This document shows, in pieces, positions 44,729-64,000 of a stretch of 64,000 nucleotides of DNA. This DNA is from Acidobacteriota bacterium (GTDB lineage: Bacteria > Acidobacteriota > Vicinamibacteria > Vicinamibacterales > SCN-69-37). Under the pieces are notes generated by a model. That model searched no databases, was not told the origin of the DNA, and saw nothing but the letters and a program-made list of their open reading frames with translations. Every line of letters begins with the position of its first letter. Within the stretch, counting starts at the first letter, position 1. The stretch is from contig CANIII010000007.1 of the NCBI GenBank assembly GCA_947467605.1, positions 62,001 to 126,000 on the forward strand. Direction: 5' to 3'. A program made the position numbers and the translations under genes.

Positions 44729-44750
44729 ACTGATTCCGCCGTCCCGACTC

Positions 44751-44778
44751 TTGACAATATTTAGGTGGGCGTCATACT
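44751..44778 (+). promoter_or_regulatory. Sigma-70-type promoter of the second MCP gene
   Basis: TTGACA (44751-44756), 16-nt spacer, CATACT (44773-44778). The context GCGTCATACTCA is the same as in the first MCP promoter, so the promoter was copied with the gene. Confidence 0.7.
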
Positions 44779-44886
44779 CATCGCGCCGGTCATGAGAAGA
44801 GCGTCGCATCGCGAGACGCGCGCCGGTAGACGTACACACGAACGCGGCCGCATTGTGCGGCTCCCGGACCTGAGGCCTAACGGATC

Positions 44887-46716: not shown

Positions 46717-46736
46717 CTTCCCGGCTCACATTGGTG

Positions 46737-47696: not shown

Positions 47697-50686
47697 AGCA
47701 CTACCCGGAAGCGCTGCTCGATGTTCCGGACGCGGCCACAGGGCCAGCGCCACTGCCGACCACCGGCGCGGTCGCGGCGTGCTTCGCAGACTTTCGCGAA
47801 ACGGCGCTCATCGAACTCGCCTGGATCAGCCGCACGGTCAAACAGATCAAGCAGAGTGACGACGAAGACGTGCTCGATCATCTGTACCGTCGCGGCCACG
47901 TCGTGGCCCGCCTGGCGGAAGTGCTCGAGATCCCGCGCGTGTCGCAGGTGCTCGCGCTGCTCGATCTGGTGCTCGACCTCGGCCGCAATGCCGGAGGGTT
48001 CGGCTCCCACTCCATGGGCTATCTCGTGGCGTTGCTGGTCGACACCGCCACGAAGGTACTCGACGAGTTGGCCACCACGGGGCACGCGTCGATGGACATT
48101 GATGATGTCGTCGGCGAGTGCCGCACCTATCTTGCTCGGCCGCTGGCCGAGAGCAATGCCCCTCCCGTCGTTGCGGTCGTTGAAGAAGCGCCCCCGCCCG
48201 CCATCGCCGAGCCTGACGTCGTCGAGGCCGCGCCGCCCGTGCGCCTGCCACCGACGGTGGTCGACGATGGACCCGAGGCGCTGGACGTGCCGGTGGACAA
48301 AGTCACCTTCATTGCTGATTTCTGCGACGAGGCACGTGAAAGTCTGGGCAACGTCGGACGGAAGTTGATCGAGCTTGAGACGTCTGCGTCAGGCGGAGAC
48401 GTGGTCAACGACCTGTTTCGCAGCGTGCACACGGTGAAGGGGGGCGCCCGTCTGCTGAAGATCAGCAAGATCGAAGCCGTCAGTCACGCGATGGAGAGCA
48501 TTCTCGATCAGGTGCGCAAGGGCACGCGCCAGGCCACACCCGCGACCGTCGATGTGCTGATGGATTGCACACGCGGTCTCGAGTCGCTCGTTGAGGAAGT
48601 CGGCACGGGCGGGCCGTTGCTGACCCGGATTCAGCCGCTGCTCACGGCGCTCGATGCGGTGACGAGCGGGGCGCCAGTGCCAGTCGCACCAGCCGCCGCG
48701 GAGGCCGCGACCACTCCGCCAGCGCCCGCGAGCGATGCCGCGCTGATGAAAGACGCCGCGCCCTCAAAAGACGCCGCGAAGGCGCGCGCCGTGTCGGGCG
48801 GTGAAAGCATTCGCGTGCCCACCGAGAAGCTCGACGAAGTGCTCAACACCGCATCCGAGATCTTCATCGGTCGCATTCGACTGCAGAGCGAGCTGGCGGC
48901 GCTCGACGCGGCACTCCATCAGTTCAAGAAGGCCCTGCACCAGATGGAGGGCCTCGACGCCAACACGATTCTCGCGCGACTCGCGGTGGCCAACAGCCGC
49001 GTGTGTCAGGAACTGCAACACCTGCTGAGCCGCGGCACCGTCCATGTGCCGCAGGATCGGCTCGAGGCGATGGTCGGCCGATTCCATGATGAGCTGCAGC
49101 TCGAGCTTGAAGCGCAGCACGTGTCGAACGCCGAGGAGATCACGCTCAACGTGCTCTCGATCGAGGAAATCCGCAAGCGGTTCCAGAAGAACATCGAGCG
49201 GCTCGAGCAGTTGAGTTCGCGACTGCAGTCTGGCGCCATGAGTTTCCGCATGGTGCCGATCTCGCAGCTCTTCGACCGGTTCCCCGCGCAGGTGCGTGAG
49301 GTCGCGCGGCAGGTCGGCAAGAAGGTGCGCCTCGATGTCAGCGGCGGCGACACCGAACTCGACAAGGTGTTGATCAACAAGCTCGGCGATCCGTTGATCC
49401 ACATCATGCGCAACGCGATCGATCACGGCATCGAAGACGCCGAGGGGCGCCTCGCTGCCGGCAAGCCCGACGTCGGCCGCATCACCCTGCGCGCGTATTA
49501 CCACGGCTCGCACGCCGTGATCGAAGTGTCTGACGACGGCCGCGGCATCGACCAGCAGCGCGTGCTCGACAAAGCGGTCAGCGTGCAGCTGGTGACGCCG
49601 GAGCGCGCGGCAACGATCACGCCTGCCGAGATCCTTGAACTGATCTTCGAACCAGGCTTCTCGACGGCCGGCAAGGTCTCTGCGCTGTCGGGCCGCGGCG
49701 TCGGCATGGACGTCGTGAAGACGGCCGTCAATCAGGTGCAGGGCTCGGTGGCCATCGAGAGCACGCTCGGCACCGGGACCACGATTCGCATCAAGCTGCC
49801 GCTCACGCTCGCCGTCGTCGGCATTCTGCTGGTCGAAGAGCGGTCGAACCAGTTTGCGTTCCCGATTCTGAATGTCGAGGAAGTGCTGTCGGTCGATCGC
49901 ACGCAGATTCGTCAGGTCAGCGGCGCGACGGTGTATAACCACCGCGGGCGCACGATGCCGGTGATGTCGCTGTCGAAGCTGCTCGACTTCCCGAGCGGCT
50001 CGTTCTCCGAACCGTTCCTGTCGCTGGTCGTGCTGACCGACGGCGACAAGCGGATCGGCATCATTGTGGATGCCGTGCTCGGCAAGCAGGACGTGCTGAT
50101 CAAGAACCTCGGCAGCCTTGTGCGGCACGTGCCGTTTGTGATGGGTTGCACCATCTTGAGCGACAGCCGATTGGTGCTGATCCTGAATGCGTGGGAGGTG
50201 GTCAACAAGGCCCGCGCGAAAACCGGCGCGACCGATCTGGCCGTACGCCCCACGGGCCACTCGAAGCGCAAGGAACACGTCGTGCTCGTCGTGGACGACT
50301 CGCCAATCCAGCGCAAGAACCTCTGTTCGATCATCAGCCAGGCGGGCTACCGCGTCGATGCGGCCGAGAACGGGTTCGAGGGACTGAAGTTCATTCGCCG
50401 CCGCCGGTACTCGGTCTACTGTGTTGACGTGATCATGCCGCTCATGGACGGATTCGAGTTCGTCGAGCGTCTCCGGCGCACCACCGGCCAGACCGACGCG
50501 CCGATCTTCTTCATCACCGCCCGCACCACGCGCACCGATCGCGAGCGTGCGGCGGGCCTCGGCGTGGTCGAGTACTTCAACAAGCCTGTCGATGCGGAAC
50601 GACTGATCGCATCGATCGACGAGCATTGCCTCGGTGCGGCGCATCGTGAGGCTGCCGAGTCCGGGGCGGAAGGCGGCCACACGTGA
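47693..50686 (+). CDS. cheA: Hybrid chemosensory histidine kinase CheA-REC with two HPt-like domains
   Basis: A 997-aa kinase. A degenerate HPt-like helical domain (~28-130, H69) and an Ala/Pro linker precede a canonical HPt (~203-310; H246 in SVHTVKGGARLL). The dimerisation helices and ATPase follow: N box RNAIDHGIEDAEG, G1 VSDDGRGID, and G2 GRGVGMDVVK. Next come a CheW-like regulatory domain and a C-terminal receiver (~862-985; LVVDDS, phospho-acceptor D912, ITART, NKPVD). It autophosphorylates in response to the MCPs. The attached receiver may act as phosphate sink or branch point. Confidence 0.95.
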   Translation: MKHYPEALLDVPDAATGPAPLPTTGAVAACFADFRETALIELAWISRTVKQIKQSDDEDVLDHLYRRGHVVARLAEVLEIPRVSQVLALLDLVLDLGRNAGGFGSHSMGYLVALLVDTATKVLDELATTGHASMDIDDVVGECRTYLARPLAESNAPPVVAVVEEAPPPAIAEPDVVEAAPPVRLPPTVVDDGPEALDVPVDKVTFIADFCDEARESLGNVGRKLIELETSASGGDVVNDLFRSVHTVKGGARLLKISKIEAVSHAMESILDQVRKGTRQATPATVDVLMDCTRGLESLVEEVGTGGPLLTRIQPLLTALDAVTSGAPVPVAPAAAEAATTPPAPASDAALMKDAAPSKDAAKARAVSGGESIRVPTEKLDEVLNTASEIFIGRIRLQSELAALDAALHQFKKALHQMEGLDANTILARLAVANSRVCQELQHLLSRGTVHVPQDRLEAMVGRFHDELQLELEAQHVSNAEEITLNVLSIEEIRKRFQKNIERLEQLSSRLQSGAMSFRMVPISQLFDRFPAQVREVARQVGKKVRLDVSGGDTELDKVLINKLGDPLIHIMRNAIDHGIEDAEGRLAAGKPDVGRITLRAYYHGSHAVIEVSDDGRGIDQQRVLDKAVSVQLVTPERAATITPAEILELIFEPGFSTAGKVSALSGRGVGMDVVKTAVNQVQGSVAIESTLGTGTTIRIKLPLTLAVVGILLVEERSNQFAFPILNVEEVLSVDRTQIRQVSGATVYNHRGRTMPVMSLSKLLDFPSGSFSEPFLSLVVLTDGDKRIGIIVDAVLGKQDVLIKNLGSLVRHVPFVMGCTILSDSRLVLILNAWEVVNKARAKTGATDLAVRPTGHSKRKEHVVLVVDDSPIQRKNLCSIISQAGYRVDAAENGFEGLKFIRRRRYSVYCVDVIMPLMDGFEFVERLRRTTGQTDAPIFFITARTTRTDRERAAGLGVVEYFNKPVDAERLIASIDEHCLGAAHREAAESGAEGGHT

Positions 50687-52689
50687 TGGAGTCCGCCGGC
50701 ATGTTGTTGTGCATCGAGAATCCTATCTACCGCCGCTATCTCGAGCATGAGTTCACGGCCCGTGGCACGGCGTTCAGCTCGGTCGACACCGAATCGCTCG
50801 CGACGGTCATCGCCGAGAACCCGAACGGATTACTGCTGCTGCAGTCGGAGTCGTTCGAGTACGGCCTGATCGATCTCTCCGCACGGCTGAAGCGCATCTT
50901 CGGTGACGAGATCAAGGTGTTGCTCCTGTCGTCCGACTATCGGACGGGCGACGACGCCGGACACTCGGTGGATGCGTTCTTGCAGTTTCCCGCCACGGTC
51001 GATGAGGTGCTGGGTGCCGTCGGCACGCTGTCGGATCGCGGACGGAAGATTCTGCTGATCGACGACTCGAAGCTCGTGCACAACCACCTCGGTCCGCCAC
51101 TGCGTGGCGAGGGGTATCAGGTCTTCAACGCGTTCGACGGCGCGGAAGGTCTGGAGCAGGCCAAGATCATCGCGCCCGATCTGATCATCTGCGACATCGA
51201 AATGCCGAAGATGAACGGGTACGAGGCGTGCTCCGCCATTCGCAAGACCGAGGGCATTGCCGACACCTACATCATCATGTCGAGCACACTCGGCTCGGCG
51301 ACCGATCAGCAGCAAGGTTTCAAAGTCGGCGTCGACGAGTACCTCACCAAGCCGGTCGTCATTCCAGAGCTGCTGGACCGCATTCGCAAGGTCTTCAAGT
51401 CGTCGCGTGGTGGACGCGAAAACATTCTCGTGCTCGAGAGCGACGACGTCGTGTCGCGCAGCGTGTACAAGTCTCTGCACAAGCAGGGGTTTTCGGTGCG
51501 CGAGACCACCACGATCAAGGCGACGGTGCGGCAGCTCGAGAAATTGAGCTATGACCTGGTGATCTCGACCATGTCACCGCGCGACGGATCGGTGATTGAG
51601 CTGATGACGGCGCTGCGTGGCTTGCCGGTCGAGCGTCGGCCCGACGTCGTCATCATGACGTCGCGCGGGAGTTACGCCGACGAGAAGATGGTTGTGAACG
51701 CCGGTGCGGCCGGCATCATCACGAAGCCGTTCACGATGGACAGCCTGCTGGCAACCGTCGAGCGCACACTTGCCGACCGGCGTGCCGGCCAGGAGCGCGC
51801 GCATCTGGACAAATACGTCTCGAAGGCGTCGCGGAAGATGGCGATCGAAAAATCGATCCTGTCGGGCAAGACGGCCGGGGCCCGGGCCTACAAGAAGGCC
51901 GTGACGGTCTTCTTCAGCGACATCAAGTCGTTTACGTCGCGCTGCGAGAAATACACGCCGCGGGAAGTCGTGACCCAGGTCAACACGCTGTTCGAGGTGC
52001 TCACGCGCGTCATCATGGCGCACGAGGGCGACGTCGACAAATTCATCGGCGATGCATGCATGGCGTTCTGGACGGATCGCGATCTGACCGTCACGGCCCG
52101 CCGAGCGCTCAAGGCCGTGGTCGAGATGCGTCGCGCGTTGGCGGTGATGAACGAGCAGCACCCGAACCTGAAAGAGGATCCGATACACATTCGGATCGGT
52201 CTCAACACCGGCGAGGTCATCCTGTGCGACCTCGGCTCAGCCGACGCGCGCATGGATCTGAGCATTATCGGCGACCCGGTGAATGTGGCGGCGCGGTTCG
52301 AATCGGCGGCCAAACAATACGGCGTCGACAACCTCATCGGCGAGAGCACGATCGCCGGCCTGCTGGATGAATTCGCCGCACGGCCGATCGACTGGGTGCG
52401 CGTCAAAGGCAAGAACGAACCGGTCGCCTGCTACGAACTGATCGGCGAGCAGGGGCAGATCTCCCCACGCGAGACGACGTTGATTCAGGAGTACTCCCGC
52501 GGGATGGCGCTCTACCGCGCCGGCAGTTTTGCGGAGGCGCTCGCCGCATTTGAAACGTCGGATCCGTACGAGTGGCACACGGCCGAAGGCGACCTGAATC
52601 CGTCGCGGCTGTTCATGGAACGCTGCCGCACCCTGATCGCACACCCGCCCGAGCACTGGGACGGCGTGTGGACGCTGACGTCCAAGTAG
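50686..52689 (+). CDS. Triple-receiver response regulator fused to a class III nucleotide cyclase
   Basis: A 667-aa protein starting at ATG 50686 on the CheA stop (TGATG). REC1 (~1-115) has lost its acidic pocket and acceptor. REC2 (~118-240) is canonical, with LLIDDSK, acceptor D170 in LIICDIEMP, and TKPV. REC3 (~245-365) has Thr in the acceptor position (DLVISTMSP) but keeps TKPF. The cyclase domain (~400-590) retains metal ligands in FFSDIKSFT and KFIGDACMAFW, the Lys in VDKFIGD, and VNVAAR. The adenine-selecting position is Ser (LSIIGDPVN). It is the only evident effector in the operon, so cAMP (less likely cGMP) is the probable output. Confidence 0.92.
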   Translation: MESAGMLLCIENPIYRRYLEHEFTARGTAFSSVDTESLATVIAENPNGLLLLQSESFEYGLIDLSARLKRIFGDEIKVLLLSSDYRTGDDAGHSVDAFLQFPATVDEVLGAVGTLSDRGRKILLIDDSKLVHNHLGPPLRGEGYQVFNAFDGAEGLEQAKIIAPDLIICDIEMPKMNGYEACSAIRKTEGIADTYIIMSSTLGSATDQQQGFKVGVDEYLTKPVVIPELLDRIRKVFKSSRGGRENILVLESDDVVSRSVYKSLHKQGFSVRETTTIKATVRQLEKLSYDLVISTMSPRDGSVIELMTALRGLPVERRPDVVIMTSRGSYADEKMVVNAGAAGIITKPFTMDSLLATVERTLADRRAGQERAHLDKYVSKASRKMAIEKSILSGKTAGARAYKKAVTVFFSDIKSFTSRCEKYTPREVVTQVNTLFEVLTRVIMAHEGDVDKFIGDACMAFWTDRDLTVTARRALKAVVEMRRALAVMNEQHPNLKEDPIHIRIGLNTGEVILCDLGSADARMDLSIIGDPVNVAARFESAAKQYGVDNLIGESTIAGLLDEFAARPIDWVRVKGKNEPVACYELIGEQGQISPRETTLIQEYSRGMALYRAGSFAEALAAFETSDPYEWHTAEGDLNPSRLFMERCRTLIAHPPEHWDGVWTLTSK

Positions 52690-52696
52690 CGCTGTC

Positions 52697-53548
52697 GTGA
52701 CCGACGCCCTCGCCTCGCGGTTGCCGCTGCACGTCCATGAATACCGGCGCCTGAGAGACCTCGTCGGCCAGCAGTTCGGCATTCAGCTCACCGATGACAA
52801 GCAGGTGCTCGTCACCAACCGCATGGGCAACTACCTGGTGAGCCGTGGCTTTCAAAGCTACACGCAGTTTCTCGACCAGCTCGAGACCGAACGTGGCGGG
52901 CCGTTGCTCGACGACCTCGCGTCGCTCATCAGCACGAACCACACGTATTTCTTCAGAGACGACGTGCATTTCACGATGCTGAGCACGACGGTCTGGCCGG
53001 AGCTCGAACACGAGGCGCGGCGCACGCGCGCGCGTGACCTGCGCGTGTGGTGCGCGGCATCATCGACCGGCGAAGAGGCGTACTCGATCCTGTTCACCAT
53101 GCTCGACTACTTCGGGCCGCGCTACTCCACGTTCGAGGCGGGCCTGCTCGCGACAGATATCTCGACGGCAGCGCTCGACCAGGCCACACGCGGCGTCTAC
53201 GAGGCGTCCCGCGCCGCGGCGGTGCCGGCGCACCTGCGCGACAAGTACATGAGCCGACGCCCCGACGGCAAGATGGAAGTGCTGCCCGAAGTGCGGCGTG
53301 AAGCGCACTTCCGTAAATTCAATCTCATGACGACGGTGTTTCCGTTCAAGAAGCCGTTTCACGTGATCTTCTGTCGCAACGTGATGATCTATTTTGACGT
53401 CGCGGCGCGCGCGGCGCTCGTCGAGCGTTTGAAAGATTGTCTCGTCCCCGGTGGTCTGCTCTTTGTGGGACCGTCCGAGGCGATTCACGGCGAAGTGGGT
53501 CTCGAATACGTCGCGCCGGCTGTGTATCGGCGTAAGGGCCGACGCTGA
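52697..53548 (+). CDS. cheR: Chemoreceptor methyltransferase CheR
   Basis: A 283-aa SAM-dependent methyltransferase. The helical N-terminal domain (~10-80) is followed by the Rossmann domain: RVWCAASSTGEEAYSI (SAM-binding), LLATDISTAAL and IFCRNVMIYFD. It methylates glutamates in the MCP signalling bundles for adaptation. GTG 52697 follows the cyclase gene by 7 nt and its stop overlaps cheB (TGATG). No TPR extension is present. Confidence 0.95.
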   Translation: MTDALASRLPLHVHEYRRLRDLVGQQFGIQLTDDKQVLVTNRMGNYLVSRGFQSYTQFLDQLETERGGPLLDDLASLISTNHTYFFRDDVHFTMLSTTVWPELEHEARRTRARDLRVWCAASSTGEEAYSILFTMLDYFGPRYSTFEAGLLATDISTAALDQATRGVYEASRAAAVPAHLRDKYMSRRPDGKMEVLPEVRREAHFRKFNLMTTVFPFKKPFHVIFCRNVMIYFDVAARAALVERLKDCLVPGGLLFVGPSEAIHGEVGLEYVAPAVYRRKGRR

Positions 53549-54672
53549 TGACACCGGTACGCAAAGTGCGCGTCGTCGTCATCGATCACATGCCCCTGTC
53601 GCGCAAGGCGGTGGCCGAGAGCGTCGGCGGGTCGGCCATCGTGGAAATTGTCGGCGTCGCCTCCTCGCCGCGACCGGCGATTCGCAAGCTGGATGCGCTC
53701 AAGCCCGATGTGATCCTCCTTGATCTCGAAGATGCGTCGGCCGAGGAGCTGTCGTTGCTCGTGCCGCTGGCCCGCGAGGTGCAGGTGCCGATCGTCCTCT
53801 TCACCGCGCTCGACGCCGCCGCGCGGCGCATGGTGATGACCACACTCGGCATCGATGCGGATCGCGTCATTGAGAAGCCACTCAGCAACCTGATCGCCGG
53901 GATCTTCGAAATCGCCCCCGTGCTTGAAGCGACGCTGAAACGAGTGCACACCGGCGAGCGGCTGCGATGGCCAGGCCCGGTGACCGCAGAACCGGCGCGC
54001 ATCGTTGCGCGTCCTGCCGCACGTCCTGCGCCGCCGTCACCACCACCACCACCACCACCACCGCAGCGGAACCTGCTGCCGTCCGCCACGCCCGCGCGGT
54101 CATCGCAGCGCATCATCGCCATCGGCGCATCCACCGGCGGCACCGAAGTGATCGCTGATCTGCTGACGCGCTTGCCCACCGACATGCCGGGGATCGTGAT
54201 CGTGCAGCACATGCCGCAGGAGTTCACGGGCAAGTTCGCTGAGCGGCTCGATCAACTGTCTCCACTTTCCATCAAGGAAGCCGAAGACGGCGATCGGATC
54301 TTGCAGGGCGCGGTGCTGATTGCGCCCGGTGGCCACCAGTTGCGCGTGACCCGTCAAGGTGACGGCTTCGTCGTGCGCGTGCAGGAGACCACCCGTGTCA
54401 GCGGGCATTGCCCGTCAGTGGACGTGCTGTTGTCGTCGGTCGCCAAGGCGGCCGGCGCGCGTGGCATCGGCGTCGTGCTCACGGGGATGGGAAAGGATGG
54501 CGCGCAAGGCCTGCTCGAGATGCGGCAGGCGGGCGGGCGGACGTTTGCTCAAGACAAAGCCAGCAGCACCGTGTTCGGCATGCCGGCCGAGGCGGAGCGC
54601 ATGGGCGGCGCCGAGAAGGTCGTGTCTGCGGCCGATCTGCCGCGGCAACTGTCGCTCGTCGCCTACAGCTGA
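53548..54672 (+). CDS. cheB: Chemoreceptor methylesterase CheB
   Basis: A 374-aa protein: receiver domain (~5-130; acceptor D59 in VILLDLEDAS, Lys in EKPLS, first acidic pair reduced to IDH), a proline-rich linker (~145-180), and the methylesterase domain (~185-370). The catalytic triad is S195 (GASTGG), H221 (VQHMP) and D317 (GMGKDGA). It removes methyl groups from MCPs when activated by CheA. It is the last gene of the operon and is followed by a long hairpin. Confidence 0.95.
   Translation: MTPVRKVRVVVIDHMPLSRKAVAESVGGSAIVEIVGVASSPRPAIRKLDALKPDVILLDLEDASAEELSLLVPLAREVQVPIVLFTALDAAARRMVMTTLGIDADRVIEKPLSNLIAGIFEIAPVLEATLKRVHTGERLRWPGPVTAEPARIVARPAARPAPPSPPPPPPPPQRNLLPSATPARSSQRIIAIGASTGGTEVIADLLTRLPTDMPGIVIVQHMPQEFTGKFAERLDQLSPLSIKEAEDGDRILQGAVLIAPGGHQLRVTRQGDGFVVRVQETTRVSGHCPSVDVLLSSVAKAAGARGIGVVLTGMGKDGAQGLLEMRQAGGRTFAQDKASSTVFGMPAEAERMGGAEKVVSAADLPRQLSLVAYS
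54038..54061 (+). repeat. (CAC)8 microsatellite in the cheB linker
   Basis: Eight CAC triplets encode a run of prolines between the receiver and esterase domains. Length changes would alter linker length without shifting the frame. Confidence 0.8.
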
Positions 54673-54697
54673 AAACCGACTCACCCAGAACCAGTAA

Positions 54698-54774
54698 CCA
54701 TAAAGGGCAATGAAGGGCCAAGAAGAAGTGGTTTTCAAAAACCTAACTTCGTGGCCCTTCAATGCCCTTCATGG
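54698..54774. terminator. Long nested hairpin between convergent cheB and the pseudo-SGNH gene
   Basis: Outer arms of 23 nt (54698-54720 and 54752-54774) match at 21 positions. Inside, GAAGT/ACTTC and GGTTTT/AAAACC form a second stem around a 2-nt loop. Each outer arm contains two copies of an AAGGGC-type half repeat. Its place between convergent genes suggests a bidirectional terminator, possibly derived from a dispersed repeat. Confidence 0.65.
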
Positions 54775-54790
54775 CTATTAAGCACAGCTC

Positions 54791-57700
54791 TTAAGGAACT
54801 GTCGCGTCCCGATTCGGCGGGCGCGTGTTCAGATTGCGCGTGGCACCACCATCGATCAGCACGCTGATGTACGGCTGCCCGGGGGTCTGCGACACATGCA
54901 CGGTCGCGGTGTGCACGCCGTTCGTCTCGTCCTGGCTCCACGTGCCGAAACCCGTAAACGTCATCGTGTCGTAGTCGCCGGCCGCGGCGGTTGACTGACG
55001 CGAGTTCAGAAAATCCACCCAGATGAGACGCGTCATTGTGAAGGTACCGCCATCGGTCATGTCGGTAAATTCGAAAGATGACGATGCACCGGGCTCTGGG
55101 GCGATGGCGTAGCGATACGTGAAGTCGGCGCGGTTCGATGCGGTCATGTGGAACGAGCTGGCGCGTTTGGCGACCATTGGCTGGTCGTGTGGCACGTGCA
55201 CACCCTGAAACCGCAGGAACGGATCGAGCGCCGAGTCCGGTCCGATAGAGATCGGCGTCGTGAGGTCAGCGGACGGAAACGCGAAACCTTCCGGGAACGG
55301 GATGTGGAGGTCGCCGTGATAGCGGAACACGGTCTCGCCATTCACGCCCTTGACGAACGACGCGGGGCCGCGGAACGCGAAGGTGCTCTTGGGCGTGCGG
55401 GGTTCGAGCTGCAGCATCGCGAGAATCCAGCTCGTGGTGATCATGCCGCGGCGTAAGAAGTGCCCGAGCACTTTGCCGGTGGTCACGTCGACGCAGCCGG
55501 TCGCGATGTCGAGCGGATCGTCGAGCCACGTGATCCCGCTGTTGTTGTACATCTGGTGCTTGAAGCGCAGCCACTCGTCGTGGCCGATGAGGCTGTCGGG
55601 CACGCGCTTGCCAAACGCCTGCGCGATCGGCGACTGCGGCCGAGAGTTCAGCAAGCCACCCGGCATCAGGCTCGTGATCGCGAACGACACGGAGTTACCC
55701 GAGCGTTCGCCGAACTGAATCTGATAGCGACCGACCAGATGCGAGCGGCCCGTGCCTCGTCCGCCAATCTCTGGCGCGTTGAGCGAGAAGTCGTCGCCGA
55801 AGTAGTTGCCGAAGCTCGGCGCCGTGAAGACCTGGAGCGTGTTGGTCGGAAACTCCGGGACGGCCTGCGAATCTTCGACCGGCTCTGGCGCCATCGTGCT
55901 CAGGTGCAGGTGCGGATGGAGCGCCGTGCCATCACACGGGATGCTCGCGAAGCTCATCGACGGGCTCGCGAACGGCAACGGGAACCGCGCCGGCGCTCCG
56001 AGCACGCTCATCGGAATGAAGGTCGTGCAATAGCACTCGAAGTCGAGCAGGCCGTCCGCGCGTTGCACGAACCGCGCCCAGGTCGAACCGTACTGCCCGG
56101 GGAATTCGATCGGCGCTTTCGGCAGATTCGGGTTCACCTGCGCGAGTGCAAAGATCGCGCTGTTCTGGAAGAAGAGCCGATACTTCAGGTTCGTGACCGC
56201 GCCTGTGGCGAGGTCGAGATCACCCGATGACAGCACATCGCTTGGGTCGAGCAGGGCATTCATCAGGCCCGGGAGCCTGAAGAACTGCGGTGCTGACAGC
56301 CGCGAATCAGTGCCGGCGAGTCCCTCGCCGTGGGTCACTTCGAAGTGGGTAATGTTGTTGACCGGCTTCGTGAACGCGATCTTGATGTGACCGCTGAGAT
56401 GCGAATCAAGCAGGGCGAGGCCGCCGAAGAGCAGGTTGCCGGTAATGCCGTAGCCAATCTCTGCCGGATCGGTCGAGTGCACCGCGCGCAGCGCGTCGCC
56501 GTAGTAGCTCGCGTCCTGATTGAGCGGGAGGATTTGTTCGAGACTCGCCGGTAATTGCAGTGGCAATGCGCCGGCAACCGCTGCCTGTGATTTTGCCTTT
56601 CCCGACTTCTTCGCTGCGGCAGCGGCTTTAACGGGTGCGGCCGCTGCGACGGGTGCCGGCGGCTGAAGATCCTGTGCGGTGAAGTCCGGACCGTCAGCCA
56701 GTCGGTAGTTGGCCACCGCGTCGCCTGGCATCAGGGCTTCGACGTTGATCGCGCCGAACGACGTGCCGTAGTTCGCATTGAGAAGATCGAGGACGCCGTT
56801 GGCGATCAGTGCCTGACCAGTGGCGCCCGGGTAGTAGCCATTGAGGGAGTAGAACCCGCCGAGGAAATCGGCGGTCAGCGTCTTGCCGGCGACCACGACG
56901 CCCGAGGTCCTGACGGTTCGATACAGCGCGTGTAGGTGGTACACCGTGGCGCCGCACTTGGCGGCCACCGCCGCGATCTCTTCGTTGAGCCCGCTGACGC
57001 GCGCGCTGATTTCAGCACCGACCGACGCGCGCAGTACGGCCGCTTCGGATGGTGGCTGCGGCTTCTTGCAGATGAGCTGGTAGCCCATCTCCATCAATCC
57101 ATCGACCGACAGGCGGTCGTTCGCAGCCAGACCCGACACCATGGCCACCATCGGTGCCGGCACCTTCAGCACGCGCGCCACGGCATCCACCGGCGAGAAG
57201 TGTGCGGTATCTGACGGGTCGGGGATGGTGGCGACAATGACTTCGCAACCGGCCGCCCGCAGGGCGCTCACAAGCTTTTCGTATTGCGCGCGGAAGGTCT
57301 GTTGGTCGGGCATCGCCGCGACGTTGCGCGTGATGGCGGCGTGGAGCACCTCGGCGAATCCCACCTCGATCACCGCGAGCGTTGGTTTTTGCGCCAGCGC
57401 GTATTCCAATGGTGTGGGCGTGGCCATCTCGGCGGACGTCAGCGCGCCGTCCATGCCGATGACGAGATTCACCGCGGTCTGCAGGGCGTCGTCACCGCGC
57501 ACCAGCGGTTGGGCGGCGCGTCGGGTCAATGCATCGGCGAGCGTCAGTCCCGGCATCGAGACGTTGGCGTGCGACTCGGTGACGGGGAACTGTGACAGCA
57601 CGGTGGTCTGCAGATCGAGCGGTAGCCGAACCGGCAGGCGCGCGAAGCCCGGCGCATCGCCGAGGCCCGGTGCCTGAAGCAGTGGCTGCACAAACCGCAC

Positions 57701-57829
57701 GTTCATCGCGCGCGCGATCTGCGCCGGGAAACTGTGCACCTGATCCGATTCGATCAGGCTGAAGTTCGTCATGCCGGCCGCAAGGCCTTCACCGATGACC
57801 AGAAAGCGACTGCAATCGAGTGTTTTCAT
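54791..57829 (-). CDS. Pseudo-SGNH large protein, copy A (unknown function)
   Basis: 1,012 aa, no signal peptide. Residues 1-360 follow the layout of SGNH/GDSL hydrolases, but the catalytic blocks are changed. The GDS block reads G13-E-G15. The GxND block reads G157-F-A-E160. The DxxH block reads N330-G-Y-Y333. A Lys/Ala/Pro linker (~385-415) leads to a ~590-residue region, probably beta-rich (SYYGDALRAVHS, NITHFEVTHG, GTGRSHLVGRYQIQFGE, LDDPLDIATG, TRLIWVDFLNS). I do not recognise that region. A paralogue is encoded divergently at 58632. Catalysis by the usual Ser-Asp-His mechanism appears impossible, so a binding or structural role is inferred. Confidence 0.85.
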   Translation of the reverse strand: MKTLDCSRFLVIGEGLAAGMTNFSLIESDQVHSFPAQIARAMNVRFVQPLLQAPGLGDAPGFARLPVRLPLDLQTTVLSQFPVTESHANVSMPGLTLADALTRRAAQPLVRGDDALQTAVNLVIGMDGALTSAEMATPTPLEYALAQKPTLAVIEVGFAEVLHAAITRNVAAMPDQQTFRAQYEKLVSALRAAGCEVIVATIPDPSDTAHFSPVDAVARVLKVPAPMVAMVSGLAANDRLSVDGLMEMGYQLICKKPQPPSEAAVLRASVGAEISARVSGLNEEIAAVAAKCGATVYHLHALYRTVRTSGVVVAGKTLTADFLGGFYSLNGYYPGATGQALIANGVLDLLNANYGTSFGAINVEALMPGDAVANYRLADGPDFTAQDLQPPAPVAAAAPVKAAAAAKKSGKAKSQAAVAGALPLQLPASLEQILPLNQDASYYGDALRAVHSTDPAEIGYGITGNLLFGGLALLDSHLSGHIKIAFTKPVNNITHFEVTHGEGLAGTDSRLSAPQFFRLPGLMNALLDPSDVLSSGDLDLATGAVTNLKYRLFFQNSAIFALAQVNPNLPKAPIEFPGQYGSTWARFVQRADGLLDFECYCTTFIPMSVLGAPARFPLPFASPSMSFASIPCDGTALHPHLHLSTMAPEPVEDSQAVPEFPTNTLQVFTAPSFGNYFGDDFSLNAPEIGGRGTGRSHLVGRYQIQFGERSGNSVSFAITSLMPGGLLNSRPQSPIAQAFGKRVPDSLIGHDEWLRFKHQMYNNSGITWLDDPLDIATGCVDVTTGKVLGHFLRRGMITTSWILAMLQLEPRTPKSTFAFRGPASFVKGVNGETVFRYHGDLHIPFPEGFAFPSADLTTPISIGPDSALDPFLRFQGVHVPHDQPMVAKRASSFHMTASNRADFTYRYAIAPEPGASSSFEFTDMTDGGTFTMTRLIWVDFLNSRQSTAAAGDYDTMTFTGFGTWSQDETNGVHTATVHVSQTPGQPYISVLIDGGATRNLNTRPPNRDATVP

Positions 57830-57831
57830 GC

Positions 57832-58542
57832 TTATTTGGCCTCCGCGAGTTCGGGGCCGATCTGGCCGACGTACGGAATGCCGGCGCGCCGCGCAGCGAG
57901 AATTTCTTCCATGACCTGTTCGGTGATCTGTTCGAAGCCGAGTGGATGTGTTTCGAGCACGAGCGTGCCCATCGGCAGCGTGGCCGTTCGGACGTCGCCG
58001 CCTCCCGATGGCAACCAGTCGTCGTCCAGAATCACGTCATCGCCGTCGCGAAAAATCCGAAACTTGAAATGTCCGCGGAAGAATCGGCTCGTCACATTGA
58101 CGTGCACGGTGAACGTGTCGGGGTCGGTGACGGGTTCCTCCGACATGTCCCATTCCACGAGCCCCAGTGCCGCGACTATTCCCGCGGCGACCGCCTGTCC
58201 TGCGGACTTGCCGGGGTCTCCGAAGGGCTCGCCAAGTACTTCTTCCATCTTCCGGGTGAATGGATTGATCTTGAAGTGCCGCGTGCGCTTCACGCGGTCG
58301 TAGGTTTCCATCTTCCGGTCCATGAAGTTCCGGAAGTCCGCGAACATGATGCCCTCACGCACTTCCTCGAGCGTCACACCAGACAGGCGATAGCGCGCTT
58401 TGAACAGCAGGCGCTTTTCCGCGAAGGGATTCACGACCGGCACAAACAGCGGCACGTTGAACGGCACGCCGGCCTGCTCAATCTCGCGAACGGTTGTGCC
58501 GAAGGTCGAAATGCAGGATCGCGCCTCAGGGGAGATCTTCAT
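57832..58542 (-). CDS. 236-aa companion of the pseudo-SGNH proteins (unknown function)
   Basis: A soluble alpha/beta protein without signal peptide or familiar motif. Basic/aromatic segments (RRLRR-like pattern absent; VKRTRHFKINPFTRKM present) are followed by a beta-rich part (TFTVHVNVTSRFFRGHFKFR, TLPMGTLVLETHPLGFEQI) and a C-terminal helix. AGGAGA precedes ATG 58542. It ends 2 nt before the ATG of pseudo-SGNH copy A, so the two form an operon and probably work together. I cannot name the fold. Confidence 0.75.
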   Translation of the reverse strand: MKISPEARSCISTFGTTVREIEQAGVPFNVPLFVPVVNPFAEKRLLFKARYRLSGVTLEEVREGIMFADFRNFMDRKMETYDRVKRTRHFKINPFTRKMEEVLGEPFGDPGKSAGQAVAAGIVAALGLVEWDMSEEPVTDPDTFTVHVNVTSRFFRGHFKFRIFRDGDDVILDDDWLPSGGGDVRTATLPMGTLVLETHPLGFEQITEQVMEEILAARRAGIPYVGQIGPELAEAK

Positions 58543-58571
58543 GACGTCGTGGTGTCTCCTGTCGTTTCGGC

Positions 58572-58580
58572 TACACTATC
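58572..58580. promoter_or_regulatory. Overlapping divergent -10 elements of the pseudo-SGNH cluster
   Basis: Plus strand TACACT (58572-58577) and minus strand GATAGT (58580-58575) overlap. Both transcripts have leaders with Shine-Dalgarno sequences, so the two directions would compete for polymerase. Confidence 0.4.
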
Positions 58581-58631
58581 GCACACTTCGAATTGCGTGC
58601 GCTGCGCGGCACGTTGAAGGAGCCTCCTCCC

Positions 58632-61600
58632 GTGGATCCATCCAACCGCTTGACCTCATTCGATCCGTCCAGATTTCTCGTGCTCGGTGAGGGCCTCGCA
58701 GCCGGGATGACCAACTTCTCGTTGATCGAGTCGGATCAACGCGAAAGTTTCGGTGCGCAGATGGCGCGCCAGATGAAGGTCGAGTTCGTTCAACCGTTGT
58801 TACAGGCGCCGGGCCTCGGCGACGCGGCAGGGTTCCCGCGATTGCCGGTGCGCCTGCCATTCGATCACCAGACAACGGTTCTGTCTGAGTTCCCCCCAAC
58901 AGCACCCGTCTGCAACTTGTCAGTACCAGGGCTCACGGTCGCCGAATCGGTCAGCCGTCGGCCCGTGTCGCCGCTGATTCACGCGGACGACGCGCGGCAG
59001 ACGGCGATCAATTTCATTCTGGGCTCGCCGGCCCGGCCGGAGCGAGAGTCGGTTGCGGGGACGCAGCTCGAATGCGCGATCGATCGCGCGCCGTCGCTCG
59101 CCATCGTCGCGCTCGGATTTGCCGAGGCACTCGAGGCTGCGACCGCCGCTCGGCCCGATGCGATGCCTGATGTCGCCACGTTCCGCGAGCACTACACAAT
59201 GCTCGTGTCAGGGCTTCGCGCGACCGGCTGCCAGGTCATCGTCACCACGATTCCGGATCCGATGGACACCGCGCACTTCTCGACGAGTGCCGCCGCCGCG
59301 CGCGTCGTCAAGATGCCTGCGGCGCTGCTCGAGAGTGAATACAACCTCGATCGCGGCGGTCGGGCCACGGTGAACGGCCTGATGGAGATCGGCTACCGGC
59401 GGATGAGCGGCAAGGCGTCACCCCTGCCGGCCGGTTCGGTGCTGCGTGGCTCGATCGCGGCCGAGATCACCAACCGCGTGGCGTCGCTGAACAAGGTCAT
59501 CATGGCCGTGGCCGCTGAGCAGGGCGCGACCGTGTACGACCTCGGTGCGTTCTTCCGGAAACTGAATCGCGGAGGTGTTGCGGTCGGTTCCCGCACGTTG
59601 ACGTCAGATTTCCTCGGCGGCTTCTACTCCCTGAACGGCTACTACCCGGGCAAGACCGGTCACGCGCTGATTGCCAACGAACTGCTCACGCATATCAACA
59701 GTTCCTACGGCACCACGTTCGAGATGATCAACGTGCTGTCTGTCATGAAGACGGATCCGGTGGCCGACTACCGGCCGGCCGACGGACCCGACTACAGCAC
59801 CCTTGCCGGTGCTGCCGCGTCTGCGGTCTCCACGCTCAAGACGTGGTCGACGATGGCCAGTTTTCTGGCCAATGCGGTGGTCGACACGATCACGCGCAAG
59901 CGCCCGGCACCGCCGGCCATGACCGATTCACATCCGGAGCTGTGGACGCTGCGTCTGCCTTCTGGCTTCGAGCAGGAATTGCCGCTACACAAGTCATCGA
60001 GCTACTACGGCGACGCGCTGCGACCTGTGCATACCGACGACACGAAGGAAGCGGAGTACGGTCTGACGGGTCGTCTGCTCTTTGGCGGCCTCGCGATGCT
60101 CGACACGCATCTGAGTGGCACGGTGAAGATCAAGTTCACGCCGCCGGTGAACAACATCACGTCATTTGAAGTGACACATGGCGCCACGGGGCTCGTCGGC
60201 GACGATTCGCGTTTGTCCGCACCGCAGTTCTTCTGCCTGCCGGCGATTGGTCATCAGGTGCTCGACTCGGCCGCTCAGCCGTCAACGGGCAAGTTGAATC
60301 TGATCACCAGCGAAGTGACGGATCTCAAGTTCAAGTTCTTCTTTCTGAATTCCGTGATCATGTCGCTCGCGGCCGTCAATCCCACGTTGCTGCGAGATCC
60401 GCTCCAGTTTCCCGGGGAATACGGATCGACCTGGGCCAAGTTTGAACAGCGGCCCGACGGGCGACTCGACTACACGTGCTATGCCACCACGTTCATTCCG
60501 TTGAGCGTGCTGAAGACGCCGATCCGTTTTCCGTTGCCGTTCACGGGCCCGAATGGGAGCTTCGCGCACATTCCGTCGGACGGCACGGCGTTGCATCCGC
60601 ATATTCATCTCAGCACGCGGCCGCCCGAGGCGGCCGATCCTGGCGTCGAACTGCCGGATCTGCCGGTCAACACGATTCAGATGTTCACCGCGCCGTCGCA
60701 CAACAATCATTTCGGCGACGACTTCTCCCTCAATACGCCGGCACTCGGCGGCTTCGGCACCGGGCGATCGCATCTGGTCGGGCGGTATCAGATTCAGTTC
60801 GGCGAGCGCTTCGGCAATTCGCTGCAATTCTCGATTGTCACCAGCCAACCGGGCGGCGTGATGACGACATTGCCGCAGACCGTGATTGCGAAAGCGTTCG
60901 GCAAACGGATACCCGACAGCCTCCTGGGACACGACGAGTTCCTGCGCTTTCACAAGCAGACGTACAACAACGATCGTATTTCGTGGCTCGACGATCCGCT
61001 CGATCTGGCCGTCGGTGTGATCAACCTGAAGACCGGCAAAGTGCTCGGACATCTGCTGCGGCGCGGCATGATTTCGACGAGCTGGATTCTGGCGATGCTG
61101 CATGTTGAGCCGCGAACGCCCAGCGCCACATTCAAGTTTCGCGGTCCGGCGGGATTTTCGAAAACGCGCAAAGGCCAGACGCGTTTCTGGTTCCACGGCG
61201 ATCTGAGCATTCCATTCCCGGAGAATTTCAACTTCCCGACAGCCCAGTTCACCGAAGATTTTGCGGCCGACGCCGATGCGGCCAAGCTCGGTGAAGGCGT
61301 GAAGTCATTCCCGATTGGCCCGAAGTCGGCGCTTGATCCGTACCTGCGATTCTCCGGTATGCACGTACCCGGGCCAGCGAAATTCCCGAAGCGCGTGGGC
61401 GGCAGCCGGCAGATGACGGCGCTCAACGGCATCGACTTCGCGTATCACTACGAGCTGGTGCCGAGCCCAGGCGTGTCGACGTTTGAGTTCACCAACATCA
61501 CGATGGGCGCGTCGTTCCGCATGACGCGCCTCACCTGGGTCGACTTCCTCAACTCCGCAACGTCATCGGCGGCCGAGGGCGACTACGACACGTTCACGTT

Positions 61601-61772
61601 TACCGGCTTGGGCACCTGGAGCGAAGACCCGGATCCGACCAACACGACGCACGTGGCCACGGTGCATGTCTCGACGTCGCCGACCCATCCGTTTGTCAGT
61701 GTGATTATCGACGGCGGACCGGCGACCAACGTACAGACACGGCCACCGGATCGGGAACTGACGCATCCGTAG
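58632..61772 (+). CDS. Pseudo-SGNH large protein, copy B (unknown function)
   Basis: 1,046 aa from GTG 58632, with AGGAG upstream; the frame extends to 58593 without support. It is colinear with copy A along its whole length. The SGNH-like N-terminus again lacks catalytic residues (G19-E-G21; GFAE; SLNGYYP). Shared C-terminal motifs include SSYYGDALRPVHTDD, LFGGLAMLDTHLSG, GTGRSHLVGRYQIQFGE and LDDPLDLAVGV. It has an extra segment near the end of the linker and near TAQFTEDFAADADAAKL. Identity to copy A looks close to half by eye. Divergent placement with the 236-aa gene suggests one co-regulated unit. Confidence 0.85.
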   Translation: MDPSNRLTSFDPSRFLVLGEGLAAGMTNFSLIESDQRESFGAQMARQMKVEFVQPLLQAPGLGDAAGFPRLPVRLPFDHQTTVLSEFPPTAPVCNLSVPGLTVAESVSRRPVSPLIHADDARQTAINFILGSPARPERESVAGTQLECAIDRAPSLAIVALGFAEALEAATAARPDAMPDVATFREHYTMLVSGLRATGCQVIVTTIPDPMDTAHFSTSAAAARVVKMPAALLESEYNLDRGGRATVNGLMEIGYRRMSGKASPLPAGSVLRGSIAAEITNRVASLNKVIMAVAAEQGATVYDLGAFFRKLNRGGVAVGSRTLTSDFLGGFYSLNGYYPGKTGHALIANELLTHINSSYGTTFEMINVLSVMKTDPVADYRPADGPDYSTLAGAAASAVSTLKTWSTMASFLANAVVDTITRKRPAPPAMTDSHPELWTLRLPSGFEQELPLHKSSSYYGDALRPVHTDDTKEAEYGLTGRLLFGGLAMLDTHLSGTVKIKFTPPVNNITSFEVTHGATGLVGDDSRLSAPQFFCLPAIGHQVLDSAAQPSTGKLNLITSEVTDLKFKFFFLNSVIMSLAAVNPTLLRDPLQFPGEYGSTWAKFEQRPDGRLDYTCYATTFIPLSVLKTPIRFPLPFTGPNGSFAHIPSDGTALHPHIHLSTRPPEAADPGVELPDLPVNTIQMFTAPSHNNHFGDDFSLNTPALGGFGTGRSHLVGRYQIQFGERFGNSLQFSIVTSQPGGVMTTLPQTVIAKAFGKRIPDSLLGHDEFLRFHKQTYNNDRISWLDDPLDLAVGVINLKTGKVLGHLLRRGMISTSWILAMLHVEPRTPSATFKFRGPAGFSKTRKGQTRFWFHGDLSIPFPENFNFPTAQFTEDFAADADAAKLGEGVKSFPIGPKSALDPYLRFSGMHVPGPAKFPKRVGGSRQMTALNGIDFAYHYELVPSPGVSTFEFTNITMGASFRMTRLTWVDFLNSATSSAAEGDYDTFTFTGLGTWSEDPDPTNTTHVATVHVSTSPTHPFVSVIIDGGPATNVQTRPPDRELTHP

Positions 61773-61802
61773 CGAACGTGGCGCGATGGTGTGACGATGC
61801 GG

Positions 61803-63047
61803 TCAGAGTTCGACGCCGGAGAGCGCGATTCGCGAGACGGTAACAGCGAACGGCTCCGCGCCGGCCGGCATCGGCAGTCCGGCGATCGCGCGCGATGAGA
61901 TCCGGATCTTACCGACGGCGCCGGCATCCTCAGACAGCTTCGACGCGATATTCACGGGATCTCCCGAGATGCCGCTGCTCCCGCGCTGATTTCCAAACAT
62001 CAGCACCGGACCGCGATCGATGCCGATCTTGACCTCGACGCCGTTCTCGCGGAACCGCGTGCGCACGGCGTCGGCGAACTCGAGGGACTCACTCGGCGTG
62101 TCGAATGTCAGGATGGCGAGGCCCGCGCCAAAGCCGGCCACGTGGTCGCCGGCGCGCATCGTCACTCTGACGATCGTCTCCATCAGCGCATTGTCGACGA
62201 AGCCATCGAGCAGCGCCGTCAGACCTCCTGTGGCTCCCTCGGCGCCCGCCTTCGCGACAAACACGATCACCCGGTCGCGCAAGTACGCGTCGTAGATGCG
62301 GCGGCGCAGGCTGTCGACATCCGCGGTGAGACGGAGCGCGTTCAGGTCGGCGAAGAACTCGGCAGGAAACGGATGCGGGTATGGCGTCTCGTCAGCGCGA
62401 AGGTCGGGTCGGCCGCACGTCCCCGACAATCCGAAGACACCCGGCGCGTGCACCTCAGTGAGGTCAGGGCGTGGCGTCAGTTCCAGTGACGCGTCGTCAC
62501 CCAGGTGATTGCGAATCGCGCGCGTGACGAGCACGACGCCGGGGTCGGCGAAGTCTTCCGCCAAGCGCTGGACGGTTTCCGCGTCCAGGCCGTAGAGGCC
62601 GCCGCCGACTTCGAAGAATTCGCCGTGGTGCACACACATGCCGATGCGCAACGGGCTCTCTCGGGCGATCCGCGATTGCGCCTCCGCCATCGCGTCGATG
62701 ACGAGCCGAGTCGGCACGGATGTCGGGTAGTACATCTCTGTGTTGTCGGCCGTCCAGATGCCGATGGGGCGTCCGCCTACGGCCACGCCCAGCCCGTGAA
62801 CGGTCTGCTTGGGTCCCGAGACCAGTGCCAGCACGTCGAGCAGATCGCGCTCTTCGGTGAGCCGGCTGAGGCCAGACGTGTCCGACGCGACGACGGTGCC
62901 GACGCGTCGATAGGTGTCGAGCAACCGTTCGGCTTCCGTCGCATTCTGATTGCCGCTCGCCCAGCTCTGCAGCAACTCAATCGGCAGGGGACCGGCGATG
63001 TCTTGCGTCAGGTCGGCCAGAGCGGGAATGATTTTCGGCAGCGCCAC
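61803..63047 (-). CDS. Degenerate tandem class III cyclase-like protein
   Basis: A 414-aa soluble protein with two cyclase-homology segments. The first (~90-220) includes LRIGMCVHHGEFFEVGGGLYG. The second (~245-400) ends with VKIGIDRGPVLMFGNQRG and SGISGDPVNIASKLSEDAG. The metal-binding F-S-D-I and substrate-Lys D-K-F motifs are missing from both, and the transition-state Arg is Lys in VNIASK. Cyclase activity is therefore unlikely; nucleotide binding or regulation of another cyclase is possible. GTG 63047 has CATAGT preceded by TGG 6 nt upstream. Confidence 0.75.
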   Translation of the reverse strand: MALPKIIPALADLTQDIAGPLPIELLQSWASGNQNATEAERLLDTYRRVGTVVASDTSGLSRLTEERDLLDVLALVSGPKQTVHGLGVAVGGRPIGIWTADNTEMYYPTSVPTRLVIDAMAEAQSRIARESPLRIGMCVHHGEFFEVGGGLYGLDAETVQRLAEDFADPGVVLVTRAIRNHLGDDASLELTPRPDLTEVHAPGVFGLSGTCGRPDLRADETPYPHPFPAEFFADLNALRLTADVDSLRRRIYDAYLRDRVIVFVAKAGAEGATGGLTALLDGFVDNALMETIVRVTMRAGDHVAGFGAGLAILTFDTPSESLEFADAVRTRFRENGVEVKIGIDRGPVLMFGNQRGSSGISGDPVNIASKLSEDAGAVGKIRISSRAIAGLPMPAGAEPFAVTVSRIALSGVEL

Positions 63048-63052
63048 GCCGG

Positions 63053-63059
63053 TACTATG
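63053..63059. promoter_or_regulatory. Overlapping divergent -10 elements
   Basis: Minus strand CATAGT (63059-63054) lies 6 nt from GTG 63047 with an extended TGG. Plus strand TACTAT (63053-63058) faces the beta-barrel gene. Confidence 0.4.
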
Positions 63060-63114
63060 CCAGACCCATGGTGGCGCGGATGAGAATGATGAGAATCATG
63101 AGAAGATCTCGCGC

Positions 63115-63669
63115 ATGACGAAGTCGTTCTGGTCCGCAACTGCAATGGTGTGTCTTCTGGCCTCGCCCGTGGCGGCGCAGACCCCGGCCACGCATCCTGA
63201 ACCTGCTGAACACAAGGAAGCCCTTGCCAAGGCGGAACTCTTCGCCGGCTACTCGCTGTCGCGCGACGACGGCGAGACCTTCAACGGGTTTGCAGCCTCA
63301 TTGAATTTCAACGTCAACTCGTGGTTCGGCCTTGGTGTGGAGACCAGCGGTCACTACAAGAGCCACGACGGCGTGGATCTGGCGAAGAACTCGTTCCTGG
63401 TCGGCCCTCGTGTGTCGAAGCGTGGCGGCAAAGTGGTGCCGTTCGCCTACGTCCTTGGCGGTATCGAGCGCAGCCGCGTGTCGATTGGTTCGGTGGCCGT
63501 CTCGGAGAACGACACCGCCTTTGCCATCGGCGGCGGCCTCGATTTCGAGATCAACGCCAAATGGGCGTTCGCGATCGAGGGCGATCAACTCCTGGTGCGT
63601 TCGCACGGCGACACGCACGGCACGCCACGGCTCTCGATCGGATTCGTTGTGATGCTCGGTCAGAAGTAA
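63115..63669 (+). CDS. Small outer-membrane beta-barrel protein
   Basis: A 184-aa protein with signal peptide (ending near SPVAAQ) and a predicted eight-stranded beta-barrel of the OmpA/OprF-like porin family. Evidence is the alternating strands, such as AELFAGYSLSRDD, FGLGVETSGHYKS, FAYVLGGIERSRV and SIGFVVMLGQK at the C-terminus. No ligand is implied. ATG 63115 is the first start with a signal peptide; GAGAAG lies upstream. Confidence 0.8.
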   Translation: MTKSFWSATAMVCLLASPVAAQTPATHPEPAEHKEALAKAELFAGYSLSRDDGETFNGFAASLNFNVNSWFGLGVETSGHYKSHDGVDLAKNSFLVGPRVSKRGGKVVPFAYVLGGIERSRVSIGSVAVSENDTAFAIGGGLDFEINAKWAFAIEGDQLLVRSHGDTHGTPRLSIGFVVMLGQK

Positions 63670-63706: not shown

Positions 63707-64000
63707 GTGGCTGATCTCGAATTCCTCGCCGCGATTCCGATCTTCAGCTTCTTCAGCCGCGACGAACTGGCTGCCGCTGAGAAGCAGTTCCGGGAAGTGT
63801 CGTTCGCCAAAGACGATGTGATCATGCGCATCGGCGACCCGGGCGACACGTTCTATGTCGTGCTCGATGGCGAGTTGGAGGTGTGGGACGCCAGCACACC
63901 GCCGCGCCAGACCGGTTCGATCAGCCGTGGCGACTGTTTCGGCGAGATGGCGCTCTTGCAGGGCGGCAAACGCGGCGCCACGGTCACGGCCGCGCGTCGC
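63707..64000 (+). CDS. Cyclic-nucleotide-binding domain protein (cut by right edge)
   Basis: The first 98 residues are a CNB/CAP-family domain: FLAAIPIFSFFSRDELAAAE, GDPGDTFYVVLDGELEV, then the phosphate-binding cassette GDCFGEMALLQGGKRGATV with its conserved Glu and Arg. What follows (DNA-binding domain, enzyme or another CNB) lies outside the window. Together with the cyclases it supports cAMP signalling as a theme here. Confidence 0.88.
   Translation, partial: MADLEFLAAIPIFSFFSRDELAAAEKQFREVSFAKDDVIMRIGDPGDTFYVVLDGELEVWDASTPPRQTGSISRGDCFGEMALLQGGKRGATVTAARR

Follow-up and report, generated by a model that had tools for sequence, protein, structure and literature searches.

The stretch of DNA analysed here (the window: 64,000 nucleotides, positions 62001-126000 of contig C7 of the Acidobacteriota genome G000) carries two paralogous genes for large proteins that resemble SGNH hydrolases but have lost the catalytic residues, and that we refer to as pseudo-SGNH proteins. 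Copy A (54791-57829, minus strand) encodes 1012 amino acids (aa) without an N-terminal signal or targeting module. It is separated by 2 bp from the gene of a 236-aa protein (57832-58542, minus strand), with which it is probably co-transcribed in this genome. Because of this spacing and the GGAG that precedes copy A, an operon of the two genes, as proposed in the original prediction, is plausible here, but the pair is not conserved in relatives. Copy B (58632-61772, plus strand) is 57% identical to copy A over the whole length. Its listed open reading frame (ORF) begins with a TTG at 58593 (1059 aa), which is a doubtful start; the alternative GTG at 58632 (1046 aa) is the most likely one, since an AAGGAG is found 9 bases upstream. 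The starts of the 236-aa gene and of copy B lie 89 bp apart. The genes are thus placed divergently, as had been predicted, but the overlapping promoter proposed for them is unproven, as a search of 54600-63200 gave no sigma-70 consensus.

The N-terminal parts of the two proteins give weak matches to Pfam PF13472 (Lipase_GDSL_2; E 8e-4 and 0.05), and neither copy has a match in NCBIfam. In profile comparisons, positions 6-374 matched many SGNH proteins of the single-domain type, with E values as low as 1e-56. At the level of sequence, both copies are confirmed as SGNH-fold proteins by descent, with a homology that spans the whole fold; in copy A the domain comprises residues 1-375 (56705-57829, minus strand). 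The three catalytic blocks within this layout have been replaced in the same way in both copies, as was seen in the original prediction: GDS by GEG, GxND by GFAE and DxxH by NGYY (in copy A at 57785-57793, 57350-57361 and 56831-56842, respectively, on the minus strand).

The extent of the loss is apparent from an alignment of 31 SGNH domains, nine from members of the fused family and 22 from single-domain relatives. The block V His occurs in 22/22 of the relatives versus 0/9 of the family members, and the oxyanion-hole Asn of block III (GxND) in 20/22 versus 0/9. The block V Asp (DxxH) is likewise present in all 22 relatives and in one of the nine members (G396). The block I Ser, which has become Gly in copies A and B, is found in 22/22 relatives and in 1/8 members (the G057 protein), where eight were counted because the truncated G089 protein does not show the site. 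The new residues, too, are conserved: a Glu stands at the former block III Asp in 8/9 members, and the block V Asp has given way to an Asn in 7/9. The segments G-G-F-Y-x-L-N-G and PDPxxTA are invariant in six aligned family members. We conclude from the alignment that the replacement of the catalytic residues is not a matter of chance. In the SGNH lipase SrL, activity is abolished when the equivalent Ser, Asn or His is exchanged for Ala, whereas an Asn can occupy the Asp position (PMC10779480). Three residues, each of which is essential in a studied member, are therefore missing from the family. No full-length relative with an intact triad was encountered, and hydrolase activity has very probably been lost in copies A and B.

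The sensitive searches covered Acidobacteriota genomes (samples of 193 genomes of the class and 396 genomes of the phylum), and other phyla were reached by an exact-peptide scan of genome contigs, which returned one relative and which misses members found otherwise at 57% identity. The phage, plasmid and viral collections held nothing beyond two distant SGNH matches on plasmids. Besides many single-domain SGNH relatives, seven further genomes were found to contain the two-part family or a split form of it, which together with copies A and B amounts to nine proteins in eight genomes. The nine members, all from Acidobacteriota, form one clade (support 100/100) on a long branch of 1.1 changes per column, and they span genera, taxonomic families and at least two classes. 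Copy A groups with the G089 protein and copy B, less firmly, with that of G057 (91/75). Since the family forms a single clade with the loss in its members, the dead site is one inherited ancestral loss, and the two copies are old lineages. The original prediction had inferred a conserved non-catalytic role, rather than decay, from the shared replacement in both copies. As the shared replacement represents one ancestral loss, this argument gives way to a stronger one: conservation of the loss extends over genera, families and a second class. With an inherited and conserved loss in open frames, the proteins qualify as a pseudoenzyme family that is predicted to be non-catalytic.

Two members deviate in their architecture. 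The SGNH part and the C-terminal part of the G396 protein are encoded by two overlapping ORFs. The split shows where the domains meet, and it would agree with a descent from secreted proteins whose genes were neighbours. The G089 gene lacks the sequence for the first 58 residues; at this locus (L004 7187-10964, contig C112 of G089) an ABC1 kinase gene is without its 3' half at the point where the 5'-truncated pseudo-SGNH gene starts. The junction looks like a deletion that fused the two genes, or like an assembly join, and it hints that the ABC1 gene was once located upstream of the pseudo-SGNH gene on the same strand.

The C-terminal region of about 590 aa had been described as conserved and unrecognisable, and both observations hold. 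It is as conserved as the N-terminal region, and no sequence match was found in Pfam, NCBIfam or the PDB, the latter also when searched with whole-protein and C-terminal profiles. Phage_tube_2 and glycosyltransferase hints in Pfam were weak and isolated and were dropped. It could further be resolved into two tandem copies of a domain of about 230 aa, followed by a tail of about 120 residues whose relation to the repeats is not detectable. In hhalign, residues 425-665 of copy A match residues 660-890 with 98% probability (E 5e-14, about 28% identity). On the basis of hhalign and the alignment, the repeat domains of copy A were placed at residues 425-657 (55859-56557) and 658-890 (55160-55858), and the tail at residues 891-1012 (54794-55159), all on the minus strand. 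The alignment places those of copy B at 59952-60653 and 60654-61400 (plus strand). The repeats are kept across two classes. Copy B contains in addition an amphipathic, hydrophobic linker segment, LKTWSTMASFLANAVVDTI (59835-59891, plus strand), of which a similar version is present in the G057 protein and none in copy A.

The 236-aa gene does not share this distribution. It was found in G000 and G057 only (2/193 genomes of the class and 2/396 of the phylum), and the G057 homologue, which is 48% identical, resides on another contig than the pseudo-SGNH gene. Because it occurs in just two genomes and is unlinked in the second, the gene is not a conserved partner of the pseudo-SGNH genes. The 236-aa protein has no family match above cut-off, and a hint of a type VI secretion system effector (NCBIfam E 0.007) was dropped, as the 48%-identical homologue gives none.

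Two other protein families, both unnamed, follow the pseudo-SGNH genes closely: family 1 (the 471-aa type) and family 3 (a type of 334-436 aa). Full-length pseudo-SGNH, family 1 and family 3 genes were observed in exactly the same 5/193 genomes of the class, which belong to five taxonomic families, and the same-family relatives that were searched, where listed, contain none of the three. The hypergeometric probability of this co-occurrence is 5e-10 per pair, a value that assumes independent genomes and ignores kinship. In the phylum sample, family 1 is present in 6/6 genomes with a pseudo-SGNH gene and in 11/396 overall. The window encodes a 471-aa member of family 1 (41410-42825, minus strand), and a paralogue of it (L036 10769-12040) lies in a biosynthetic stretch beyond the window. 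Family 1 has no match in NCBIfam and, in Pfam, only a weak ThuA match below cut-off; its invariant W, E, H, G and R residues point to an enzyme or to a protein that binds a cofactor. The stops inside some family 3 matches are apparently the stop codons of the genes themselves.

The biosynthetic stretch begins inside the window (63707-64000, plus strand) and runs on past it to the contig end (L036, L037); gene calls outside the window were made with our own codon-usage script and not with a standard annotator. The first part encodes a cyclic nucleotide (cNMP)-binding patatin, a PapA-like acyltransferase, an acyl carrier protein (ACP), an AMP-ligase and an SDR, followed by two small unnamed proteins (149 and 341 aa), an aldehyde dehydrogenase, the family 1 paralogue, a family 3 protein and an HD protein. 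The genes on the other strand are for two FadL-type porins, another protein similar to family 1 and two ABC1 kinases. The same gene set is present in G104. G057 and G141 contain a second version, with ketosynthases, ACP, hydroxymethylglutaryl-CoA (HMG-CoA) reductase, a CrtI-like desaturase and an acyltransferase, again together with ABC1 kinases, families 1 and 3, and a patatin. The gene order in G141 is family 3, patatin, pseudo-SGNH, MaoC, with ABC1 and family 1; in G534, which belongs to another class and also has the second version, a patatin gene is followed after 9 bp by the pseudo-SGNH gene and then by family 3. The pseudo-SGNH gene is thus linked to the locus in G000, G104, G141 and G534, and it is on other contigs in G519 and G396. 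Relatives of locus parts also occur in G206, G349, G396, G413, G490, G519 and G529. Given the co-occurrence with families 1 and 3 and the physical linkage, the pseudo-SGNH proteins very probably belong to an acidobacterial lipid-type locus.

From its gene content the locus looks like an undescribed, patchily distributed system of the lipid or polyketide-lipid type, for biosynthesis or storage of a putative product of that kind. A literature search in an open-licence library gave no description of the gene set. The real partners lie outside the cluster of the two copies and the 236-aa gene that had been put forward as a candidate undescribed system; they are families 1 and 3, the ABC1 kinases, the patatins and the lipid/polyketide enzymes. 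Large runs of FG-GAP/UnbV-ASPIC-type proteins were seen beside the version with ketosynthase and HMG-CoA reductase (L025, L050, L053, L076). A possible integrase-like ORF, judged by eye, is located about 8 kb past the G141 cluster (L042 17304-18419) and might be relevant to the patchy spread.

Two neighbours within the window have a putative signalling function. A 414-aa protein with weak similarity to class III cyclases (61803-63047, minus strand) is encoded convergently with copy B, and an orthologue is found near the pseudo-SGNH gene also in G104; the product of this protein could act on the nearby cNMP-binding patatins. The region that separates copy A from the 471-aa gene (43013-54672) contains an apparently complete chemosensory set, consisting of two methyl-accepting chemotaxis proteins (MCPs), CheW, a 997-aa CheA-receiver-hybrid-like ORF, a 668-aa receiver-cyclase ORF, and CheR-like and CheB-like ORFs; the Pfam scan covered the MCPs and CheW.

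Several otherwise different proteins of the cluster start with the same N-terminal module of about 75 residues (MRxLxKSMxxFSWAMSxFGxQQ...). A hidden Markov model of the module, built without pseudo-SGNH sequences, detected it at the start of the pseudo-SGNH protein of G534 (E 5e-18) and, with a weak match, in that of G141 (E 0.0065). The shared module is the main hint that the proteins of the locus may meet at one surface. Small proteins that consist of this FSWAMS-type module are encoded at L025 18684-19175 and L040 11281-11694 and in L091, L093, L096, L099 and L100; the one in G141, of 163 aa, has no Pfam or NCBIfam family match.

We propose that the pseudo-SGNH protein is a catalytically dead accessory with an SGNH fold, acting as a non-catalytic acyl- or lipid-binding partner or scaffold in the synthesis, storage or turnover of lipids, and consider the chances of this proposal, with the mechanism given here, to be about even. 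The former active-site cleft, in which the former acidic positions are now fixed as Glu and Asn, would still hold an acyl chain or a lipid head group. The repeat domains, together with the N-terminal or linker helices, would dock the protein on a lipid surface (a membrane or lipid body) alongside family 1 proteins, ABC1 kinases and patatins. There it would present, protect or hand over the product, or regulate the active patatin hydrolase, without cutting anything itself. The analysis shows the degenerate cleft, the duplicated C-terminal domain and the genetic association with acyl activation, transfer and hydrolysis and with ABC1 kinases; binding without turnover, surface docking and the partnership with patatins are inferred.

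A number of observations weigh against this proposal. Structure prediction with AlphaFold2 yielded no usable model, neither for the full protein (mean predicted local distance difference test score, pLDDT, 30.7, from three sequences) nor for one repeat domain (mean pLDDT 45.5, from a shallow alignment), and a PDB fold search with the repeat-domain model gave nothing at E <= 0.001; the NanoLuc, glycosidase and triglyceride transfer protein entries that it listed were discarded, none reaching this threshold. Copies A and B themselves lack the shared N-terminal module, copy B having the amphipathic linker segment instead. The G057 protein has kept the block I Ser, and its gene has unrelated neighbours and does not share a contig with the rest of the set; most assemblies are drafts, in which contig breaks may explain such non-linkage or missing genes. 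G349 and G413 contain family 1, family 3 and ABC1 genes without a full-length pseudo-SGNH match, and the protein is therefore not needed in every version of the locus. Finally, both G396 ORFs begin with a signal-peptide-like segment, as judged by eye, and this is more in line with secretion than with a lipid body in the cytosol; no signal peptide was seen in copies A and B.

The conservation of the replacing Glu (8/9) and Asn (7/9) could also mean that the proteins are still enzymes, with the SGNH cleft rebuilt for another acyl reaction (e.g. that of an acyltransferase or lyase) by way of the Glu of GFAE and the Asn/Tyr of NGYY, or with the duplicated C-terminal domain as the catalytic part. 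The biosynthetic neighbourhood and the altered blocks of some SGNH-fold acyltransferases (PMC9487903) speak for this explanation, which we nevertheless regard as unlikely: a block I nucleophile is present in G057 alone and the block V His in none of the nine members, neither the Glu nor the Asn is universal, and the C-terminal region matches no enzyme family. That this region is conserved as well as the N-terminal one, and forms a separate, apparently secreted protein in G396, raises the alternative that the SGNH domain is a structural remnant carrying repeats with a non-lipid role, such as adhesion or the binding of carbohydrates or surfaces. We think this distinctly unlikely, given that the SGNH part has itself stayed conserved, in G-G-F-Y-x-L-N-G and PDPxxTA, and that the genes are linked to, and co-occur with, those of acyl enzymes.

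A sensory role, as a non-catalytic signalling regulator, is brought to mind by the cyclase-like gene that adjoins copy B and lies near the G104 gene, by the cNMP-domain patatins of G000, G104 and G057, and by the nearby chemosensory operon; since the surroundings of the gene in G141, G057, G089 and G534 showed neither a cyclase-like nor a chemosensory gene, such a role seems improbable. The least credible explanation is that the genes are decaying, functionless paralogues. The G089 gene, which lacks its first 58 codons and abuts a broken ABC1 gene, would agree with decay, but all eight genomes have retained open frames (a truncated one in G089, a pair of neighbouring ORFs in G396), members from two classes share the conserved C-terminal repeats, and copies A and B belong to old lineages.

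Among known systems, the ladderane-type fatty-acid clusters of anammox bacteria, with ketosynthase, ACP and CrtI-like desaturase, resemble the version of the locus in G057, G141 and G534. They differ in that this version adds HMG-CoA reductase, ABC1, patatin and families 1 and 3, and the stretch in the window genome has the AMP-ligase/PapA/aldehyde dehydrogenase set instead. The proteins themselves share with SGNH/GDSL hydrolases (PF13472) the fold layout and the order of the blocks, and over about 370 residues they are about 25-30% identical to acidobacterial single-domain members that are intact. They differ by the replaced Ser of block I, Asn of block III and Asp/His of block V and by the 590-aa C-terminal addition. 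Like the pseudoenzymes of other hydrolase families (iRhoms, the pseudo-caspase FLIP(L), pseudophosphatases), they have kept a fold over a long time while losing the catalytic residues; those proteins have other folds, whereas here a bacterial lineage is tied to a biosynthetic locus. The polysaccharide-modification acyltransferases AlgX/AlgJ and OatA also combine an SGNH-like domain that has altered motifs with other domains, but they keep the Ser-His-Asp set (PMC9487903), which the pseudo-SGNH family lacks.

On a more speculative level, the pseudo-SGNH proteins, families 1 and 3, the FSWAMS module, the paired ABC1 kinases and the patatins might together be the machinery of a lipid body, or of a compartment modified by lipids, that is so far undescribed in Acidobacteriota. 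The module would direct several proteins of otherwise unrelated kinds to a common lipid surface, where the dead lipase would serve as coat or acyl carrier. We regard this reading, too, as unlikely. What had been a pair of orphan proteins now marks a coherent gene set of patchy distribution, and this in a phylum from which few natural products have been described. The family also offers a clean case of a hydrolase domain that was converted once, ancestrally, into a large pseudo-enzyme, with intact relatives available as controls. Should the targeting idea be true, several unnamed families would gain a common location and function.

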